A stretch of 64,000 bases of DNA, taken from IMG/VR virus record IMGVR_UViG_3300033149_000928, positions 1 through 64,000 of that record; one strand, given 5' to 3'. Shown one piece after another: positions 1 to 63,515 of this stretch. The position numbers were made by a program, and so were the translations under genes. The notes beneath the pieces were generated by a model. The model was given only the letters and a program-made list of their open reading frames with translations, was not told the DNA's origin and did no database searches. Each line of letters starts with the position of its first letter. Positions within the stretch are counted from its first letter, which is position 1. The DNA comes from a virus.

Positions 1-688
1 CTCCGCATTCCTTAGTGGCAATACCTTCATTCTCTGCAATGAAGCAGGGAATAAATGTTCCGACTCTCTCGCTACTATGAAATGTCCAGGCTTCTCGAAA
101 TCTATCTGCTTTATATTTGAGATACCGAGTTGCATCTGAATAAAGATAGAGTGCAAGGCTCTGTATACGGTATCTTCCATTAATTGATATTTGGTTTGTA
201 TGGTGCCCTTTAATAACTCTTGTTCCAAGTATCTTGGCAACCATTGATAACAGGTCTTTTGAAGCATGGCAGATAGTCGAATGAAAATTTCTACATTGTC
301 CGTTATCTGATATTGAGACTGAACCATCTGCATCAAAAAGTCCTCGGATAAAGTGTCGGATGTAGTCTTCATCGAGGACTGGGAATTGACGTTCGGGTTT
401 TCTAGGCATAGATAACCATTCTGCTCCAAAAAGTACAAGCTCCCCATTATTTGGGATTTTAGTACATTTAATGTCTCTGGCAAATTGTTGTACAAGTTCA
501 ATTTCCTTAACACAAAGCTTACTTCTGTAAGTACCTTTTTGTTTATAGACTGAACCATCTCCATACCAGAACCCAAGCCAATATGCTTTTTGTTCTGTGT
601 CAATACTGTCGAAGTAGTGGGTATCCCAATAGACCCATCTGTTATTAGCATGTGAGCTTGTGTTAAATTCTTTGCTCGGACATGACAT
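1..688 (-). CDS. LAGLIDADG homing endonuclease nested out of frame in the intein (3' end outside window)
   Basis: An independent gene in the -1 frame of the intein. It starts at an ATG at 688, preceded by AGGAG seven bases upstream and by an in-frame TGA two codons before the ATG, so it is not a simple frameshift continuation. It carries two LAGLIDADG-type motifs, AYWLGFWYGDGS and HFIRGLFDADGS, as in monomeric homing endonucleases, followed by a typical recognition-domain context. It would cut intein-less helicase alleles and drive intein spread. Its first ~20 codons overlap intein residues that look functional, so that stretch appears dual-coding. Confidence 0.82.
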   Translation of the reverse strand, partial: MSCPSKEFNTSSHANNRWVYWDTHYFDSIDTEQKAYWLGFWYGDGSVYKQKGTYRSKLCVKEIELVQQFARDIKCTKIPNNGELVLFGAEWLSMPRKPERQFPVLDEDYIRHFIRGLFDADGSVSISDNGQCRNFHSTICHASKDLLSMVAKILGTRVIKGHHTNQISINGRYRIQSLALYLYSDATRYLKYKADRFREAWTFHSSERVGTFIPCFIAENEGIATKECG

Positions 689-918
689 AATTCATCTCCT
701 AGTATAGCTAAAAACAAATGATCTTTACCTACTTTTATATTATGATTATCCACTTTAATATGTATACATTCCATTTCTTTTTCAACAATACGATAAGCTT
801 CAACTGTAATAATATCACCATTTTCATCGTAACAATGCAATCTTGGTTTAGCTCTAGAATTACATTTATACCATGCTTCAATAGAAGCACCATCTACCTC
901 ATAATCACCATCAAGACA
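1..918 (-). other. Intein (N-terminal Hint splicing domain) inserted in the helicase Walker A
   Basis: Right after AEMG the frame reads CLDGDYEVDG, a typical intein block A with nucleophilic Cys1. About 60 residues on comes VGKDHLFL, matching block B with its His, then VRAKNLTQAHML, matching the last strand of the N-terminal Hint fold. ATP-binding loops of helicases are common intein sites. The in-frame sequence after about position 650 does not resemble a homing endonuclease, yet stays open to position 1. The C-terminal splicing motifs must lie outside the window, so splicing competence cannot be judged. Confidence 0.75.
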
Positions 919-1284
919 TCCCATCTCGGCCGCCCAAACACCATAATGAACAGTAAGTCCGTGTTCAACCATTTCAATTTGATGTTTATATAATGAACGG
1001 TCAGTCTTACATACTACAGGATTCTTAGTATAATTATCATAACGCTCATATGGATTCTGACCCATGAGAAAAGAGAGTTGGAAGATATTCCTTCCACTGT
1101 TTTTAATACTCCAAAGTTTACGAGGATTCTCTTTATCATAACCATGCCATTTGGCACCCTCGAAACTTTTTATCTCAGCTATTAATGTTTTATTATAAGG
1201 TGTTTTCAGAAATATCCTACCACCTTCTACTTCCATACCACACCGAACAAACTTACCTTTTGCTATTAACTTTATCTCTTCCAT
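1..1284 (-). CDS. SNF2/HARP-like DNA helicase, N-terminal part, interrupted by an intein (3' end outside window)
   Basis: The frame opens at an ATG at 1284 and has no stop to the window edge. Residues 1-122 look like the start of a SNF2-type superfamily 2 helicase: a HARP-like stretch (FEGAKWHGYDKENPRKLWSI), a Q-motif-like YKHQIEMVEHGL, then GVWAAEMG, the first half of a Walker A (AEMGxGKT). The expected GKT is missing because an intein starts at codon 123 (position 918). The protein would remodel or unwind phage DNA. The helicase core after the intein lies beyond the window. Family from motifs seen; exact role is inference. Confidence 0.7.
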   Translation of the reverse strand, partial: MEEIKLIAKGKFVRCGMEVEGGRIFLKTPYNKTLIAEIKSFEGAKWHGYDKENPRKLWSIKNSGRNIFQLSFLMGQNPYERYDNYTKNPVVCKTDRSLYKHQIEMVEHGLTVHYGVWAAEMGCLDGDYEVDGASIEAWYKCNSRAKPRLHCYDENGDIITVEAYRIVEKEMECIHIKVDNHNIKVGKDHLFLAILGDELCHVRAKNLTQAHMLITDGSIGIPTTSTVLTQNKKHIGLGSGMEMVQSINKKVLTEVSFVLRKLNLYNNLPETLNVLKSQIMGSLYFLEQNGYLCLENPNVNSQSSMKTTSDTLSEDFLMQMVQSQYQITDNVEIFIRLSAMLQKTCYQWLPRYLEQELLKGTIQTKYQLMEDTVYRALHSIFIQMQLGISNIKQIDFEKPGHFIVARESEHLFPASLQRMKVLPLRNAE

Positions 1285-1305
1285 AATTATTTTCCCTCGG
1301 CTGCC

Positions 1306-1803
1306 TTATTTTTCCTTCAAACATACGGTGCCATCTTCAAGATTAACTCTACTATAATTTCCCCATACAGCTTTGAAGTCATGTTCTTCAAAAATACTCA
1401 ATACCAACATAAAGAATATCCTACGATGCTTTTCGTTATCTGAATCCAAGGAAAGGTTGGAGACTATGGTATCTTTCCACTCTCTCAATGTACCTGATAG
1501 CAAAGAGATTTGATTTAGTAAATCAACTTTCTTTATAGACCCATACCATTCAAATTCAATTTCGGAAGCAATAAATACAATCGAGATGGCATCCAAATTA
1601 AGATTACCATCTCTAATGGTTTTAAAAGGTTCTGAGGTTCTTCCGGCTATTTCATTTAAAGTAAGAGCAAAAGTTAATTGCTCATTGAATCTCAATTTAG
1701 ATGCGTCTAAATTACGTGTTGGGGCTTCTCCTAATTTCTCTTTGCAAAAGGACATATACTTAGTCCAATCAATATTAGTGAATCCTATTAACTCAATACG
1801 CAT
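1306..1803 (-). CDS. Hypothetical protein, 165 aa
   Basis: Not recognised. ATG at 1803 is preceded by an AGGA ribosome-binding site. The protein is soluble and mixed alpha/beta in character, with no obvious catalytic motif. It contains a copy of the dispersed palindrome (1510-1526) read as VDLLNQ, just after the string EWYG. It lies 22 bases upstream of the intein-bearing helicase, probably in one transcript. Confidence 0.7.
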   Translation of the reverse strand: MRIELIGFTNIDWTKYMSFCKEKLGEAPTRNLDASKLRFNEQLTFALTLNEIAGRTSEPFKTIRDGNLNLDAISIVFIASEIEFEWYGSIKKVDLLNQISLLSGTLREWKDTIVSNLSLDSDNEKHRRIFFMLVLSIFEEHDFKAVWGNYSRVNLEDGTVCLKEK

Positions 1804-1810
1804 TACTAAT

Positions 1811-1837
1811 CCTATCTACCCTATCTACCCTATCTAC
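1811..1837. repeat. Three tandem copies of CCTATCTAC
   Basis: A 9-bp unit repeated three times exactly, in the leader between the tmRNA terminator and the 165-aa gene. Function unknown. Confidence 0.85.
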
Positions 1838-1840
1838 CCT

Positions 1841-1881
1841 AAAAATACGGGTAAGGGTCATATTCTGCTGAGCATATGACC
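1841..1881 (-). terminator. Probable terminator of the tmRNA gene
   Basis: On the minus strand, an 8-bp stem GGTCATAT/ATATGACC with a 10-base loop starts 19 bases after the tmRNA 3' end and is followed, 10 bases on, by ATTTTTAG. The T-run is short and slightly displaced, so efficiency is uncertain. Confidence 0.5.
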
Positions 1882-1899
1882 ACTACCCTGTTTAATTTT

Positions 1900-2284
1900 T
1901 GGTGGAGACGGCGGGAATCGAACCCGCGTCCTGCGATAAATCTGGTATGAGTTGCTACGTGTGTAGTTGGTGTTCTGTATCCGGCACACCAACAAGCCTC
2001 TCACGTTACTTCCCGTGATTCCAGTCAGATTAATTTCGGTGAGGTACGACCTTGACTTATCATATCCACACCATAGCAGAGTAGTGACCGTACTAACGAT
2101 TACGCTGCCACCTTATCGCTTTCTGGGCTAGGCTTTAAGCAGCCTTAGCAGACTGACCGAAATCAGCATTGATTACGTTATTGGCAGTTAATTTTGTAAT
2201 CGGCTTTTTAACGCGGCCAACCGATCAACCGCGACACGCAACTCAAACTTTTTCTATCCAGTCGATACCTAAAATTTCGTCCCC
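1900..2284 (-). ncRNA. ssrA: Phage transfer-messenger RNA (tmRNA)
   Basis: The 5' end GGGGACG pairs with the 3' CGTCTCC of an acceptor stem followed by an encoded ACCA. The third pair is G-U, the identity element of alanyl-tRNA synthetase. The T-arm reads GGGTTCGATTCCC. Length is 385 nt, normal for tmRNA. The tag frame (2185 down to 2135) starts at a GCC resume codon and reads ANNVINADFGQSAKAA then TAA. It would rescue stalled ribosomes and tag nascent proteins. The tag ends in AKAA rather than the usual LAA. Confidence 0.93.
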
Positions 2285-2462
2285 AAATTAAATAAATCAG
2301 TCTCGGCATACTGACATGACCCTTTAATACCAACTGCCACTTTATATCATTTAAACATCCTAAACCTGAGTGGCACGTAGGGCTTTTCCCCTGATCTTGT
2401 ATACTGGGCTCGCGAACCAGATCAAAAGACTAGCGAGTTCATACTGGTACTACTGTACCTAC

Positions 2463-3113
2463 CTATCGTTCACGCTCACTTTCGGGTGCAGCCTCCGCAG
2501 CTTCCGTCGAAGCTACATTAGCAAACTTCATTGCTTGGGCTTTGATTTCTTCTGGATCGGGAATATCAAAAGCAGTACTACAAGGAATAATCAAAGGCCC
2601 ATGCCAACTGTACTTTCCCTTCTCAATATAATGAGTCTTGAAAGTAGCAGCCTTCCGAACTAACTTTATGATATTCTTAGACTCCCGCCTTGAGGTAGCA
2701 CTAGAACAAAGATACGTAGCGAAAGCCTTAACACTATCAACATACAAAAGAAACTCTGGTCCCCACATACATCCAGAATCCCTAACCTTGGACTCCTCTT
2801 CAATACGCTTAAACTCAGCGCTGTCACGCACATGATTGAAAACCGGTGCGTCGCCATCGCTGAAGTCCAAAGCAGTAAAACGCATATGAACCACAAGAAC
2901 GTCGATTTGATTTGTTAAATCAACCACATCATCTTCCGCCCTTATTAATGCGTAATTACCTGCTTTGGCCAAGTCTTTCTTACAGACTTTTGAAGAGGAA
3001 TCCACAACCTGCAACCGAGGGAGATAATCTCCACCAACAATTTCTTTAAACTCTTTCTCGGATACTGGAAGTGTAGGCATTCCATCCATTGGTACAAGTT
3101 CATTTTCTGGCAT
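2463..3113 (-). CDS. Hypothetical protein, 216 aa
   Basis: Not recognised with certainty. ATG at 3113 follows GGAGAGAAGT. Acidic N-terminus, globular middle, low-complexity acidic/basic tail (residues ~197-216, EAAEAAPESERER). A dispersed palindrome variant at 2907 is read as VDLTNQ. It lies just downstream of the ParB-like gene. Its size and acidic tail would suit a single-strand-DNA-binding or accessory replication protein, but I see no specific motif. Confidence 0.7.
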   Translation of the reverse strand: MPENELVPMDGMPTLPVSEKEFKEIVGGDYLPRLQVVDSSSKVCKKDLAKAGNYALIRAEDDVVDLTNQIDVLVVHMRFTALDFSDGDAPVFNHVRDSAEFKRIEEESKVRDSGCMWGPEFLLYVDSVKAFATYLCSSATSRRESKNIIKLVRKAATFKTHYIEKGKYSWHGPLIIPCSTAFDIPDPEEIKAQAMKFANVASTEAAEAAPESERER

Positions 3114-3153
3114 ACTTCTCTCCTAAAATGTTTGTGTAGATGTTAGTGATTGA

Positions 3154-4110
3154 TTAAGCGGGATTTCCCGCTGCCGCCGCTTTCTCTGCCGCATCCTTCT
3201 CTTTCTTCGCATCCCGTTCAGCCTTACGCTTAGCCTTAGCTTCTATGAGTTCAGCCTTACGCTGTTCCCACTTAGCTTGATCCACCGCAATACTATCAGG
3301 ATCAACCTGAAGGAGCCACTTGATAGCCATATCAAAACCTTCTTCGGCTGTCCCAAGGGAATGCTTATTACAAAGAGACTTACCAACTTCACCCTTCAAC
3401 AGTTCATCCTTAACCTGCGACACCTTACGGACGCGCGGATTCGGCTGGAACTCTTCGGGCTTGGGGTCTCTACCTTCACGCTTGGCTGAACGAATCTCTC
3501 CCAAACGAGTAGTAACTTCAGGGATAAACTTCTGAGGGGTATCTGTCTGAGCACGATCCGAGAAGTTAGCCTGCTCTTCAGGAGGGAGCTTGGCAAGATG
3601 GTTAGCATTCGTCACGCAAATGTCTCCATCATCTACCATCTTCGCAATGCTATCTGTCAACTTGACCAGACCCAACCGTTCACTCAACCATGCCGGACTA
3701 ATAGACAGATTCTCCGACAGGGCTGACATCGTGAGAAACGGACTGAGAGCCAACAAACGATTAAGCTGCTTTGCATACTCCGCAGGGCGCGTCTCAATCT
3801 TATGCAGGTTCGTTGCCAACTGAGCTTCCAATACTTGCCCCTCGTCCATGTCCTTGAGAAGCATCGGAATCTCTTCGAGTCCTGCATCCTTCGCAGCATT
3901 GAATCGCTGCAACCCGTCAATCAGACCAATGTACTCCTCACCAGTCTGCGGGTCTTGACAAACACGGCCAAGAGGCGGGTTCAAAATTCCTTTCGCCTTG
4001 ATTGAACCAACAAGCTCTTGGTACTTCGGGCTATCCCGCTTAACATCTCGGAGCGCGGCGGGGTTCTCGCGAATCTCTCCCAATTTCACAATCTTCACTT
4101 CTTGACCCAT
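3154..4110 (-). CDS. parB: ParB/Spo0J-like DNA-binding protein
   Basis: Residues 8-110 form a ParB N-terminal domain with the motif LIDGLQRF (~63-70; cellular ParBs have GERR-type motifs here) and NLHKIETRPAEY (~101-112). A helix-turn-helix follows at about 125-150 (MSALSENLSISPAWLSERLG). The C-terminus is Lys/Ala/Glu-rich and probably helical. ParB proteins bind short palindromic parS sites and may spread using CTP. No ParA partner is visible in the window, and the many dispersed palindromes are candidate binding sites. The ATG at 4110 follows GAGGAAGG. Confidence 0.88.
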   Translation of the reverse strand: MGQEVKIVKLGEIRENPAALRDVKRDSPKYQELVGSIKAKGILNPPLGRVCQDPQTGEEYIGLIDGLQRFNAAKDAGLEEIPMLLKDMDEGQVLEAQLATNLHKIETRPAEYAKQLNRLLALSPFLTMSALSENLSISPAWLSERLGLVKLTDSIAKMVDDGDICVTNANHLAKLPPEEQANFSDRAQTDTPQKFIPEVTTRLGEIRSAKREGRDPKPEEFQPNPRVRKVSQVKDELLKGEVGKSLCNKHSLGTAEEGFDMAIKWLLQVDPDSIAVDQAKWEQRKAELIEAKAKRKAERDAKKEKDAAEKAAAAGNPA

Positions 4111-4163: not shown

Positions 4164-4291
4164 TTGATTTACTAAATCAAGAGTCAGGGATACAAGTCTA
4201 TAGTCTGCCGTAGGGGGAGTTATGTCATCAGGCGATCCGGTCCACACGGGGCAGGAAGGGGAGTACCCTGACTCTTGATTTAGTAAATCAA
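4164..4291. repeat. Exact 26-bp inverted repeat enclosing 76 bp, each arm containing the dispersed palindrome
   Basis: Arms 4164-4189 and 4266-4291 are exact reverse complements: the 17-bp palindrome plus GAGTCAGGG on the inner side. The 76-bp middle is richer in G and C than its surroundings. It lies directly upstream of the ParB-like gene. It could be a structured leader RNA, an operator pair or a small transposon-like element. A 69-codon frame crosses it but is not convincing as a gene. Confidence 0.85.
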
Positions 4292-8774: not shown

Positions 8775-8961
8775 AGAAATTCTTAGCGCGCTTCAGCCGG
8801 AACAATACAAACAACTTATGTATGCTTTCGAGCAGGAGTTCTCGCAGATAATCATTTATGAACCGGGTAAATTTATCGGGGTCAATATCGGTAGTATTGG
8901 TAATCTTGATTTACTAAATCAAGAAGGGGTTTGGTCTATAGGAAGGGTGAAAGATGAATAA
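8767..8961 (+). CDS. Small hypothetical protein, 64 aa
   Basis: Start chosen at the ATG at 8767, which overlaps the end of the primase-helicase gene. A palindrome copy at 8906 is read as LDLLNQ. The stop overlaps the next start by 8 bases. No recognisable domain. Confidence 0.6.
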   Translation: MIKEILSALQPEQYKQLMYAFEQEFSQIIIYEPGKFIGVNIGSIGNLDLLNQEGVWSIGRVKDE

Positions 8962-21377: not shown

Positions 21378-22985
21378 TTAGAATGAACCACCATCAACCG
21401 CAGCAACGGAAAGCGTTCCAGCAGCATGAGTAAGAGAATCATTGTCAATGGTAAGACCAACACCATTAGCACCAACAGTAACTTGACATACAGTTGCACC
21501 AGTTGTATCATCAGGATCGACTGAGAGTGTACTTCCACCACCACCTGCAATACCATTGCCTTGTGTTGCCAACTGCAACTGTGCTGAGCCATCAGCCTCG
21601 ATACCGACACCATCAATCGCAGCCACATCTACCGCAACACCATTAGCTCCTACACTGACAGGAACCAAATCACCACCAGACTCTGAGTCAGGATCAACAG
21701 AAAGTGTTGAACCATTACCACCAGCAATACCATTACCTTGAACAGCTAGACGGAGATTAGCTGAACCATCAGCCTCGACACCAGTACCGGCAATCGCTCC
21801 AATATCAACACCGACACCATTGGCTGTGATATTAGCTGGCTGGATATCTGAACCCGTTTCCGAGTCGGCATCAACGCTAAGCGTGGAACCATTACCACCG
21901 GCAATACCATTACCCTGTGTTGCAAGGCGGAGATTAGCTGACCCATCAGCTTCAACACCAGTACCAGCAATCGCTGAAATATCAACACCAGCACCATTAG
22001 CAGTAAGATTTACAGGTTGGACATTTCCGCCAGTCTCAGAATCAGCATCAACACTCACGATATTCGTGGTGATGTCGATACCGTTACCAGCACTAAGGCC
22101 CCCACCTTGGTTAATAAGTACCCAAGCACCAGTAGGTACAGTACCATCGAAGGCATACTGATTATTATCGTAATAGCCCTCTTGAACCATTATAGCATTG
22201 CCTTCAACTGCATCTCCTGAGGCAACACCAGTTAATGATGTTCCATCGAAGTCAACTACCTTACTATTATCCGTATTATCCGTATATGGAGAGATAAGTG
22301 CCGTACCAGTATCGGGGGCTAAAGCGGCTCTTACACCATCAGCAACAAAACCACCAGCACCAGTGGTAATTTTGACCCATGCTGATCCACTATATTCCCA
22401 GATATCACCAATTGCTGCCGCTGCCATACCTGCCGCACCATCAGCAGTTGAAACCGTATAGGCGTCACCAGTATTAGTTAAGACTTCGATAACCGATGCC
22501 GCAGCGTTACCAACGAGATTCAGAACATCAATCGGCTCTTTCCAACTTGTACCGGCAACCGCAGCATTAATAGCGGTCTGAATCTTAGAGGCAGTCCAAA
22601 GTTCAGAGGTCGTAGTTCCGCCATCATCGACAGCTTTCCCTGAGTCCTGACCTTTACCGTTGGCATCAAGACTTACGAGGTTATCTTCAGTACCGCCGAT
22701 ATCCGAAGTGATCTCGTCCCACGTTGCACCGTTATCCACAAACAACTCGTCAGTATCAGTAGCATAGAATAACCTACCAGCGACTGCCGCTGAGGGGATA
22801 CTACCAATAGCAGCCATAATAACACGACCAACGAGTAGATTAGATGCACCATCACCTACCCATAGTTCTTTTTGGTCATCGGTAGTGAAACCAAGTTCAC
22901 CCGATGCTAATGTAATTCCATCGAGAGCAGCCTTTGTACCTTTTCGTACTATGATAGTAACACCATACCAATTGCGGATTCTCAT
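21378..22985 (-). CDS. Tail fibre protein with about 53-residue internal repeats
   Basis: Starts MRIRNWYGVTIIVRKGTKA, combining the R-x-W-Y-G start seen in other structural genes with the anchor module of the neighbouring fibre. The second half has three to four repeats of the type ANGVGVDIGAIAGTGVEADG ... GNGIAGGNGSTLSVD, predicting a regular beta structure in the shaft. Ends in AAVDGGSF, echoed by LDGGSF in the following small gene. Confidence 0.78.
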   Translation of the reverse strand: MRIRNWYGVTIIVRKGTKAALDGITLASGELGFTTDDQKELWVGDGASNLLVGRVIMAAIGSIPSAAVAGRLFYATDTDELFVDNGATWDEITSDIGGTEDNLVSLDANGKGQDSGKAVDDGGTTTSELWTASKIQTAINAAVAGTSWKEPIDVLNLVGNAAASVIEVLTNTGDAYTVSTADGAAGMAAAAIGDIWEYSGSAWVKITTGAGGFVADGVRAALAPDTGTALISPYTDNTDNSKVVDFDGTSLTGVASGDAVEGNAIMVQEGYYDNNQYAFDGTVPTGAWVLINQGGGLSAGNGIDITTNIVSVDADSETGGNVQPVNLTANGAGVDISAIAGTGVEADGSANLRLATQGNGIAGGNGSTLSVDADSETGSDIQPANITANGVGVDIGAIAGTGVEADGSANLRLAVQGNGIAGGNGSTLSVDPDSESGGDLVPVSVGANGVAVDVAAIDGVGIEADGSAQLQLATQGNGIAGGGGSTLSVDPDDTTGATVCQVTVGANGVGLTIDNDSLTHAAGTLSVAAVDGGSF

Positions 22986-44050: not shown

Positions 44051-45001
44051 TTACTGACGGCTCGCGCAAGTCGCATCAAGCTCGGCAAGCTCGGCCAAGG
44101 CGTCCCGTTCCTCTTCTCCTTCCCCTGGCTTATCGAACAAGGCTCCGAGAGCCTTGAAAACGTCGCTACTGAAAGTCAGCTTCCGATCAGCGATAAGCTT
44201 CCCGGTCAATTTGTTCGGGGCTTTCTGCTCGGCGGGGTCGGCTTTCTCTTCGACCGCTTTGACATGGGCCGAGAAGATTGCTTCGACCTCTTCGGGGGTC
44301 TTGGCGTTGCTCATTTTGCTGACAACGTCGTTGGGATACATCTTGGCCTTGCGTGTTCCGGCGTTGCGTTCGTCGTATACACCCTCTTGATGCTTGGTGG
44401 GTAGCTTGGCAATTTTGGCAACGGCTTGCAATGCGCCGCGAGATGCTTTCTGCGCTTCCTGAACGCTGTCGGCATTTTTGCTCGCGGGGGAAATGCGGTG
44501 GAGAATTTCCCTTGACCGTGACCACAAGAAGCTGACCACTGTGTGGTCGGTCAAGCCCAAATCGGTCATAATGCCGACTAAGGCGCGGGTGATATCTCCG
44601 AGTCCCTTCTCCACGATACCAGTGCCGGTATCGTTCAAGGCAAGGAGCATCGCTCCGGCATTGTCGCCAGTGTAAACAAGGCATGGCACCTTGCTTTCGC
44701 CATCGACATACTGCAAGCGCCGATTGCCTTGGATGGTCTTACCATCGGGGAAGATCACAGCCGGAAATTGTGGGTTCCAGCCGGTCGCCATGCTGTCGGA
44801 CAAGGCGGCATCCCCGAAGGCATCAGGGGTGAGGGTGCGGGGGTTGTCGTCCCAGATTGAAAGCGTGTTGGCTTTCCGGTATTCGATCTTTTGACCGTTG
44901 ACCGTGGGGATGGCTGAGGCCGCTTTCTCCCCTGCTTCCTGCTTCTCGGCTTCACGCTTCTCGGCTGCGGCTTTCTTCTCTTCATCAGACATTTTCGCCA
45001 T
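44051..45001 (-). CDS. ParB-like nuclease-domain protein, 316 aa
   Basis: Start chosen at 45001 (MAKMSDEEKKAAAEKREAEK). Upstream in-frame sequence is Gln/Asn low complexity from TTTTGG repeats and probably not translated. LSIWDDNPRTL, AVIFPDGKTIQGNRRLQYVD and VPCLVYTGDNAGAML form a ParB/sulfiredoxin-like domain, with GNRR in place of the usual GERR motif. GC-rich relative to the genome. A second possible binder of the dispersed palindromes. Confidence 0.7.
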   Translation of the reverse strand: MAKMSDEEKKAAAEKREAEKQEAGEKAASAIPTVNGQKIEYRKANTLSIWDDNPRTLTPDAFGDAALSDSMATGWNPQFPAVIFPDGKTIQGNRRLQYVDGESKVPCLVYTGDNAGAMLLALNDTGTGIVEKGLGDITRALVGIMTDLGLTDHTVVSFLWSRSREILHRISPASKNADSVQEAQKASRGALQAVAKIAKLPTKHQEGVYDERNAGTRKAKMYPNDVVSKMSNAKTPEEVEAIFSAHVKAVEEKADPAEQKAPNKLTGKLIADRKLTFSSDVFKALGALFDKPGEGEEERDALAELAELDATCASRQ

Positions 45002-45289
45002 GATATCGGTTCTCCATTTCGGGTTTGTGGTCCTTGTGCCGTCCATACGGCGCAAGGATGTAGCGTTCTCTATGCTATAGGCTTTTCCTCCGTCTGCGAG
45101 TCTTTGATTTGATAAATCAAAATTTGCTCTTGCTTGCGGGTCAAGGTGGTCAACATATCGGGCATTCTCCCAACATAGGACAAGGCTACAAGCCGTATCA
45201 CTATTTTTGATTTGATTTTCTTGATTTGATTTTTGGTTTTGGTTTTGGTTTTGCTTTTGGTTTTGGTTCATGGTTTTATCCTTTCAAGA

Positions 45290-63471: not shown

Positions 63472-63515
63472 GATTAATAACCTTTCACTTCCACAAACTG
63501 ATTTAGTAAATCAAA

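Follow-up and report, generated by a model that had tools for sequence, protein, structure and literature searches.

Can a homing endonuclease gene lie inside an intein without sharing its reading frame? In the standard picture the intein protein includes the homing endonuclease as one of its domains, and the two are fused in one frame. The locus described here does not fit that picture. The window, by which we mean the whole stretch of 64,000 nucleotides that was analysed, is positions 1 to 64,000 of the viral record IMGVR_UViG_3300033149_000928. Its first kilobase has two long ORFs on the minus strand in different frames, one with its ATG at 1284 and the other with its ATG at 688. An initial annotation, made from the letters of the window alone, read these as an intein in which an endonuclease gene is nested in another frame. 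This reading is supported, and all of its sequence-level predictions held. The out-of-frame endonuclease inside the intein is real. It must be noted that the window locus is one metagenomic contig, and that single-protein and motif scans found no close relatives of it.

The intein layer of the helicase gene

The record is 84,413 bp long and its last 114 bp are identical to its first 114, which means the circle can be closed. The helicase/intein frame had been described as open from 1284 to the window edge. The minus-strand frame from that ATG is confirmed, and when it is read across the circular join there are 1350 open codons on to the helicase stop. The N-extein (919..1284, minus strand) is residues 1-122 of a SNF2/DEAD-type helicase and ends in ...WAAEMG, the first half of a Walker A motif. 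Intein 1 follows in the Walker A loop. It is 336 aa long and extends on the minus strand from 918 to 89 bases beyond the edge, in the helicase frame across the join. It starts with Cys1 at 918 and ends in TIPKYGNYFTDDGINHQN, after which the helicase resumes with TGKSLAAIE. Excision of intein 1 gives WAAEMGTGKSLAAIE, a normal Walker A motif in which EMG is joined to TGKS again. The spliced extein matches Helicase_C (5.6e-5) and SNF2-rel_dom (0.008) in Pfam. One can imagine that the whole arrangement is an artefact of the assembly edge. This is ruled out because the 114-bp end repeat joins onto an in-frame C-intein and the Walker A motif.

The N-terminal part of the Hint domain is intein residues 1-98 (625..918, minus strand). 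It has Cys1 (918-916), a GKDH block-B motif and ...HVRAKNLTQAHMLITDGSIG. Intein residues 99-306 are a frame-0 linker that is overprinted and stop-free up to the window edge (1..624, minus strand), and this filler has no domain match in Pfam. The part of the Hint past the window edge is 89 bases (L003, 8210-8299). These end in ...KVYDLTIPKYGNYFTDDGINHQN in the helicase frame and are followed by the Thr of TGKSLAAIE, which is the +1 residue. The initial annotation had suggested looking in the adjoining sequence for a C-intein, and one is present in frame, as ...NHQN before the Thr of TGKS; with the ends joined, no helicase-frame stop is seen beyond the edge. The host frame has Cys1, the terminal Asn and Thr+1 without interruption. 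The intein halves are not on separate ORFs as in a split intein, since a single frame holds them both.

Some residues of intein 1 differ from consensus. Block B is GKDH where the consensus is TxDH/TxxH, which keeps the His and replaces the Thr with Gly, and the penultimate residue is Gln (NHQN), not His. Variants of block B and of the penultimate His are known among active inteins. Those in intein 1 can slow splicing. The Pfam Intein_splicing profile matches intein 1 at 2e-6 with 28.1 bits, which is below the curated cut-off of 35.8, and its best stretch is intein residues 46-334, which bridges the filler. Intein 1 can be read as a full Hint domain only when the profile match and the splice-junction evidence are combined. 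The joined Hint parts gave no useful match in a plain tblastn against phages or with phmmer against the PDB.

There are two inteins in the helicase gene, each of 336 residues, and intein 2 precedes the helicase end. A LAGLIDADG_3 domain lies in frame in intein 2 (9.4e-20), and its two other frames have 30 and 49 stops. This in-frame layout with closed off-frames means that the helicase gene carries its own control.

Other features of the window are recorded here as separate observations. A phage-borne tmRNA gene is found near the helicase-intein gene (1900-2284, minus strand; Rfam RF00023, 128.5 bits, full length), and it was missed by ARAGORN. Reading of the translations gave two ParB-like genes, at 3154-4110 and 44051-45271 on the minus strand. 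The 15-bp palindrome TGATTTRNYAAATCA has 38 exact copies in the 64 kb (0.01 expected), or about 1 per 1.7 kb, with examples at 1511-1525, 4165-4179, 8907-8921 and 63499-63513. It occurs between genes and within them, where it often encodes DLxNQ, and this dispersed sequence looks like a candidate protein-binding site. Five minus-strand genes (near 22976, 32032, 33817, 37535 and 38446) have in common a short N-terminal peptide, [RK]xWYG, with similar DNA; they are probably structural.

The nested LAGLIDADG gene

The nested ORF encodes a LAGLIDADG homing endonuclease of 231 aa in the -1 frame (2..688, minus strand) from the ATG at 688. Its last two codons and stop are past the window edge, in the final bases ahead of the circular join, and it ends 7 bases beyond that edge. 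A Shine-Dalgarno AGGAG lies 7 nt upstream of the ATG, within Hint codons (ILGDEL; 696..700, minus strand). A stop in the endonuclease frame is found two codons upstream of the ATG (692..694, minus strand). The -1 frame, the AGGAG, the ATG and the preceding in-frame stop had all been claimed from the sequence and all are confirmed. Because of that stop, an in-frame fusion of the endonuclease to the Hint domain is impossible without frameshifting.

Judged by its motifs, catalytic Asp residues and modelled fold, the nested ORF is a complete two-motif (monomeric) LAGLIDADG protein. The codon of catalytic Asp44 is at 557..559 in the first LAGLIDADG motif (YWLGFWYGDG) and that of Asp121 is at 326..328 in the second (RGLFDADG), both on the minus strand. 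Each of these columns is invariant across 44 sequences. The Pfam match is to LAGLIDADG_3 (1.9e-10). The AlphaFold2 model has a mean pLDDT of 83, with the second half at ~95, and the fold is confident from about residue 20 to 210. Its best PDB match in Foldseek is the intron-encoded I-AniI (9.8e-8), and the top matches are intron-encoded LAGLIDADG enzymes. The poorly modelled segments are residues 1-5, 10-13 and 211-229, which are the parts that overlap Hint-coding DNA. It had been claimed that about 20 endonuclease codons overlap the Hint domain. That figure stands for the N side (~20 residues), and ~30 more must be added at the C side. The C-terminal dual-coded stretch (1..91, minus strand) has the endonuclease tail AWTFHSSERVGTFIP...GVH and its stop over frame-0 Hint ...KVLPLRNAEFIDLP. 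The tail is unstructured in the AlphaFold2 model.

The nearest sequence relatives are phage genes with ~24-30% identity that are free-standing or within group I introns. Those with names come from crAss-like phages, phiR1-37, Goe21 and Quidividi, and the phage relatives include free-standing and intron genes with their own RBS. In several relatives the start codon aligns at residue 15-20 of the nested protein, and for several the location is a phage intron or a split gene (gyrA, recA). The N-half of the nested endonuclease is ~13 residues shorter than in relatives. A regular expression for the intein C-terminus found no candidate for an in-frame intein domain among 159 further relatives from viral and GTDB contigs.

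It is worth considering whether two frames could be open here by chance. The initial annotation held that this is unlikely for ~230 codons, and this is borne out with P ~1e-4. The intein frame has 0 stops in the 232 codons over the nested ORF, compared with 8.1 expected from phage codon usage. As a null the endonuclease protein was held fixed and its codons were redrawn from phage usage in 20,000 recodings. None of the 20,000 was stop-free over the full ORF, and the fraction was 1e-4 over the core. When the ORF's own usage is taken as the null, which already contains any bias, the fractions are 0.003 for the full ORF and 0.005 for the core. The codon usage of the relatives gives 12.4 expected stops and again 0/20,000 open recodings. 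In the phage's other genes 0/605 windows of 206 codons are open in the corresponding frame. The 180-codon cores of the 159 relatives mostly have 8-20 stops in that frame. The exceptions with zero stops are two short fragments and the G+C-rich L256, whose open frame is +2; at comparable G+C dual openness is found in 0/159. Chance openness is ruled out by the recoding nulls, by the phage's own genes and by the relatives. As far as the openness of both frames goes, the locus qualifies as an overlapping (overprinted) gene pair.

Recurrence in other viruses

Many other viruses have out-of-frame layouts of this kind, in which the endonuclease belongs to one of at least three nuclease families and may lie on either strand. 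Viral contigs were scanned for C-inteins before TGK, and this gave L078, a terminase intein with an open splicing frame whose nested ORF is an HNH_3/NUMOD4 endonuclease in the +1 frame. An empty-site homologue from the same sample (L110) reads VWARR directly followed by TGKS. L109 is a divergent homologue of L078 with the same nested ORF. The two have 34% identity in the intein frame and 54% in the endonuclease, and both frames are open. Given the endonuclease, an open intein frame has a probability of ~1e-4 or less in L078 and likewise in L109. The signal of frame-0 amino-acid selection in this pair is 0.34 vs 0.235 expected, but shared ancestry confounds it and we do not take it as proof. 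A third nuclease family is seen in Gordonia phage Keitabear. Its terminase (TerL) has an intein (Intein_splicing 1.1e-16) with an Endonuclease_7 ORF in another frame (1.7e-19), and this arrangement is matched in the cultured Gordonia phages Sedona and Affeca.

The HNH endonucleases were surveyed with home-made profiles in motif-selected, partly related sequences, so the rates describe recurrence and not true frequency: of 76 inteins ending [FY]xANGIxVHN, 34 have an HNH in the -1 frame, 2 in the +1 frame, 1 antisense and 10 in frame. None was found in the other 29, a class that takes in mini-inteins, split inteins and nuclease families outside the profiles. The -1 count was 24/79 before the model was retrained on hits. 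There are 0 intein-frame stops in 24/24 examined members of the -1 class vs 2.1-8.5 expected, and Pfam independently supports both layers in L297 and L346. Tetrasphaera phage TJE1 and Rhodobacteraceae phage LS06 are sequenced phages with the same layout in which the hidden ORF is unannotated. The hidden-endonuclease locus in these two and in the Gordonia phages is annotated only as terminase. When 13 nested inteins are aligned, most of the conservation falls at the Hint ends. An AF2 model of one nested HNH intein has both Hint parts at pLDDT ~90 and a filler of low confidence, and the best PDB match of this model is the gp41-1 intein.

An antisense HNH endonuclease is found in 27/66 non-redundant Walker A inteins, all in one register, and the intein frame is without stops in 10/10 of those examined. 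Antisense HNH ORFs were seen inside both terminase and helicase inteins (L014, L016, L028, L031, L036, L043, L063, L075 and others). A single lineage may account for the whole -1 HNH class, and the same may hold for the antisense class. When the profile of the window intein was compared with that of the nested HNH inteins, the alignment covered just 19 residues of the C-terminal block, so a common intein ancestor of the window and HNH classes is unsupported. A Ruminococcus phage match (L115) was rejected as an intein, as it looks like a pretoxin-type Hint instead.

Origin, alternatives and known systems

We argue that the locus is a composite mobile element, made of a splicing intein in the helicase Walker A loop and a free-standing-type LAGLIDADG gene overprinted in the -1 frame. 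We put the probability of this at roughly 0.84. Any explanation has to account for how the locus is arranged, for motifs that are intact in each layer, for two frames that have both been kept open, and for the return of this arrangement with unrelated nucleases in other viruses. In our scenario translation of the helicase frame would give a precursor. Its two Hint parts would fold across a filler of ~200 residues and splice, which would restore the helicase. From the same mRNA the endonuclease would be made as a separate protein, with translation starting at the internal AGGAG-ATG. This protein would cut intein-less helicase alleles, and repair would copy the intein and the endonuclease gene together. 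The sole constraint on the filler would be to have no stops and no residues that disturb the Hint domain, and that would be why it has no recognisable domain. As to origin, a mini-intein was probably invaded by a free-standing endonuclease gene, which landed where endonucleases usually sit but out of frame. Hint-coding DNA would then have supplied this gene with its start and its unstructured ends.

One can imagine a scenario where this is a decayed classical intein, whose endonuclease was once in frame and was shifted by two compensating indels that are either real or sequencing errors. An in-frame endonuclease is usual at this position, intein 2 of the same gene has one, and a locus known from a single contig gives such errors some room. 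However, an unselected frame 0 would hold ~8-12 stops and there are none, and the endonuclease ORF is not cut short by any stop and is equipped with an SD and ATG of its own. The layout is also seen elsewhere, in sequenced isolates as well as in numerous contigs that are unrelated. A former in-frame fusion is unlikely because the relatives look free-standing or intron-type and a search for in-frame intein domains among them detected none. We consider decay improbable. Our reading also has to be weighed against programmed -1 frameshifting, which would produce a fusion of N-extein, Hint(N) and endonuclease and no free protein. There is a C AAA AAG heptamer (586..592, minus strand) just before the first LAGLIDADG motif. 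By our reading of the sequence it is in the helicase-frame register, where a -1 shift would enter the endonuclease frame, so the direction fits. But a strong SD-ATG exists upstream of this heptamer, the endonuclease frame would terminate before the C-intein, and the sister classes are in +1 or antisense frames that a -1 shift does not reach. It is highly improbable that frameshifting explains the locus. The heptamer is a possible alternative route to endonuclease expression.

Alternatively, the intein could contain a cryptic group I intron that holds the endonuclease; several relatives of this endonuclease sit in phage introns or split gyrA/recA genes. The filler would then be removed at the RNA level and the openness of frame 0 would be irrelevant. 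Yet frame 0 is open throughout the endonuclease, which an intron does not need, and Hint sequence directly flanks it on both sides. No Rfam intron family was found in window positions 1-4000, a search that stops short of the intein's last ~90 bp past the edge. An intron is the least plausible explanation of all, and very unlikely.

With the overprinted gene as the preferred reading, its wider meaning can be considered. Overprinted endonucleases are probably a major unrecognised architecture of viral inteins. The window locus would be its LAGLIDADG form. Many, perhaps most, HNH-bearing phage inteins would belong to it, with the endonuclease in another sense frame or on the opposite strand, and what passes for the endonuclease domain in their splicing frame would be a filler without stops. 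It would also be a stage between mini-inteins with free-standing endonucleases and split inteins. Out-of-frame endonucleases are common in inteins among the surveyed viruses, and this contradicts the picture of a fusion in one frame. When the DNA is shared and the reading frame is not, regulation, loss or exchange can affect splicing without affecting cutting, and the reverse. It also offers a path, open to testing, for the invasion of mini-inteins by endonucleases, and a filler that acquired a stop followed by a restart could turn such an intein into a split one. Many endonucleases will have escaped intein surveys that work from translated ORFs. These loci are natural dual-coding genes of ~200 codons. 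Their Hint scaffolds seem to tolerate filler insertions of 200 residues, which is useful for intein engineers.

Several known systems resemble parts of this arrangement. The ShiLan domain/Pacc40 is a hidden out-of-frame HNH in phage DNA methylases (Arsenault, Gosselin and Gogarten 2025, PMC11855218). No splicing domain was detected in ShiLan, which is neither intein nor intron, its methylase host was judged non-essential, and its HNH has a GTG start without an RBS (PMC11855218). Our locus is like ShiLan in having a homing-type endonuclease in another frame of an insertion, with the host frame kept open and no fixed fusion. It is unlike ShiLan, which has HNH only, in its LAGLIDADG endonuclease, its SD-ATG and its restored Walker A motif, and the Hint blocks and splice-junction residues of a splicing domain are present. 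The phage LAGLIDADG endonucleases that are free-standing or in group I introns are nearest by sequence and have their own start codon, but are not embedded in inteins. Classical large inteins, with LAGLIDADG or HNH in frame, have the same Hint halves at the ends, the same endonuclease position and the same insertion in an ATP-binding loop. Here, however, the endonuclease and splicing domain share neither reading frame nor polypeptide; the ORF is in the -1 frame and the filler has no domain.

Dassa et al. (2009, cited in PMC3229294) are said to have described fractured genes, in which the intein is split and a free-standing endonuclease gene separates its halves. The likeness is an independent endonuclease gene between the parts coding for Hint-N and Hint-C, and the difference is that the window intein is unsplit and its frame 0 is continuous. 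Split-type counterparts were seen. Campylobacter phage WX1 has one in its RNR gene (L117, 2261-3254), a split-type intein with two ORFs between Hint-N and Hint-C. Another is in dnaE of an Acidobacteriota MAG (L256, 2755-3612), where Hint-N ends in a stop and is followed by an out-of-frame LAGLIDADG relative and an in-frame C-intein; as its sequence reads, this is a possible split-intein intermediate. In the openly accessible literature that we searched, we found no paper on a continuous intein whose endonuclease is out of frame or antisense. Overprinted intein endonucleases are best seen as a variant of these known kinds and not as a new category, and the variant is apparently both widespread and undescribed.
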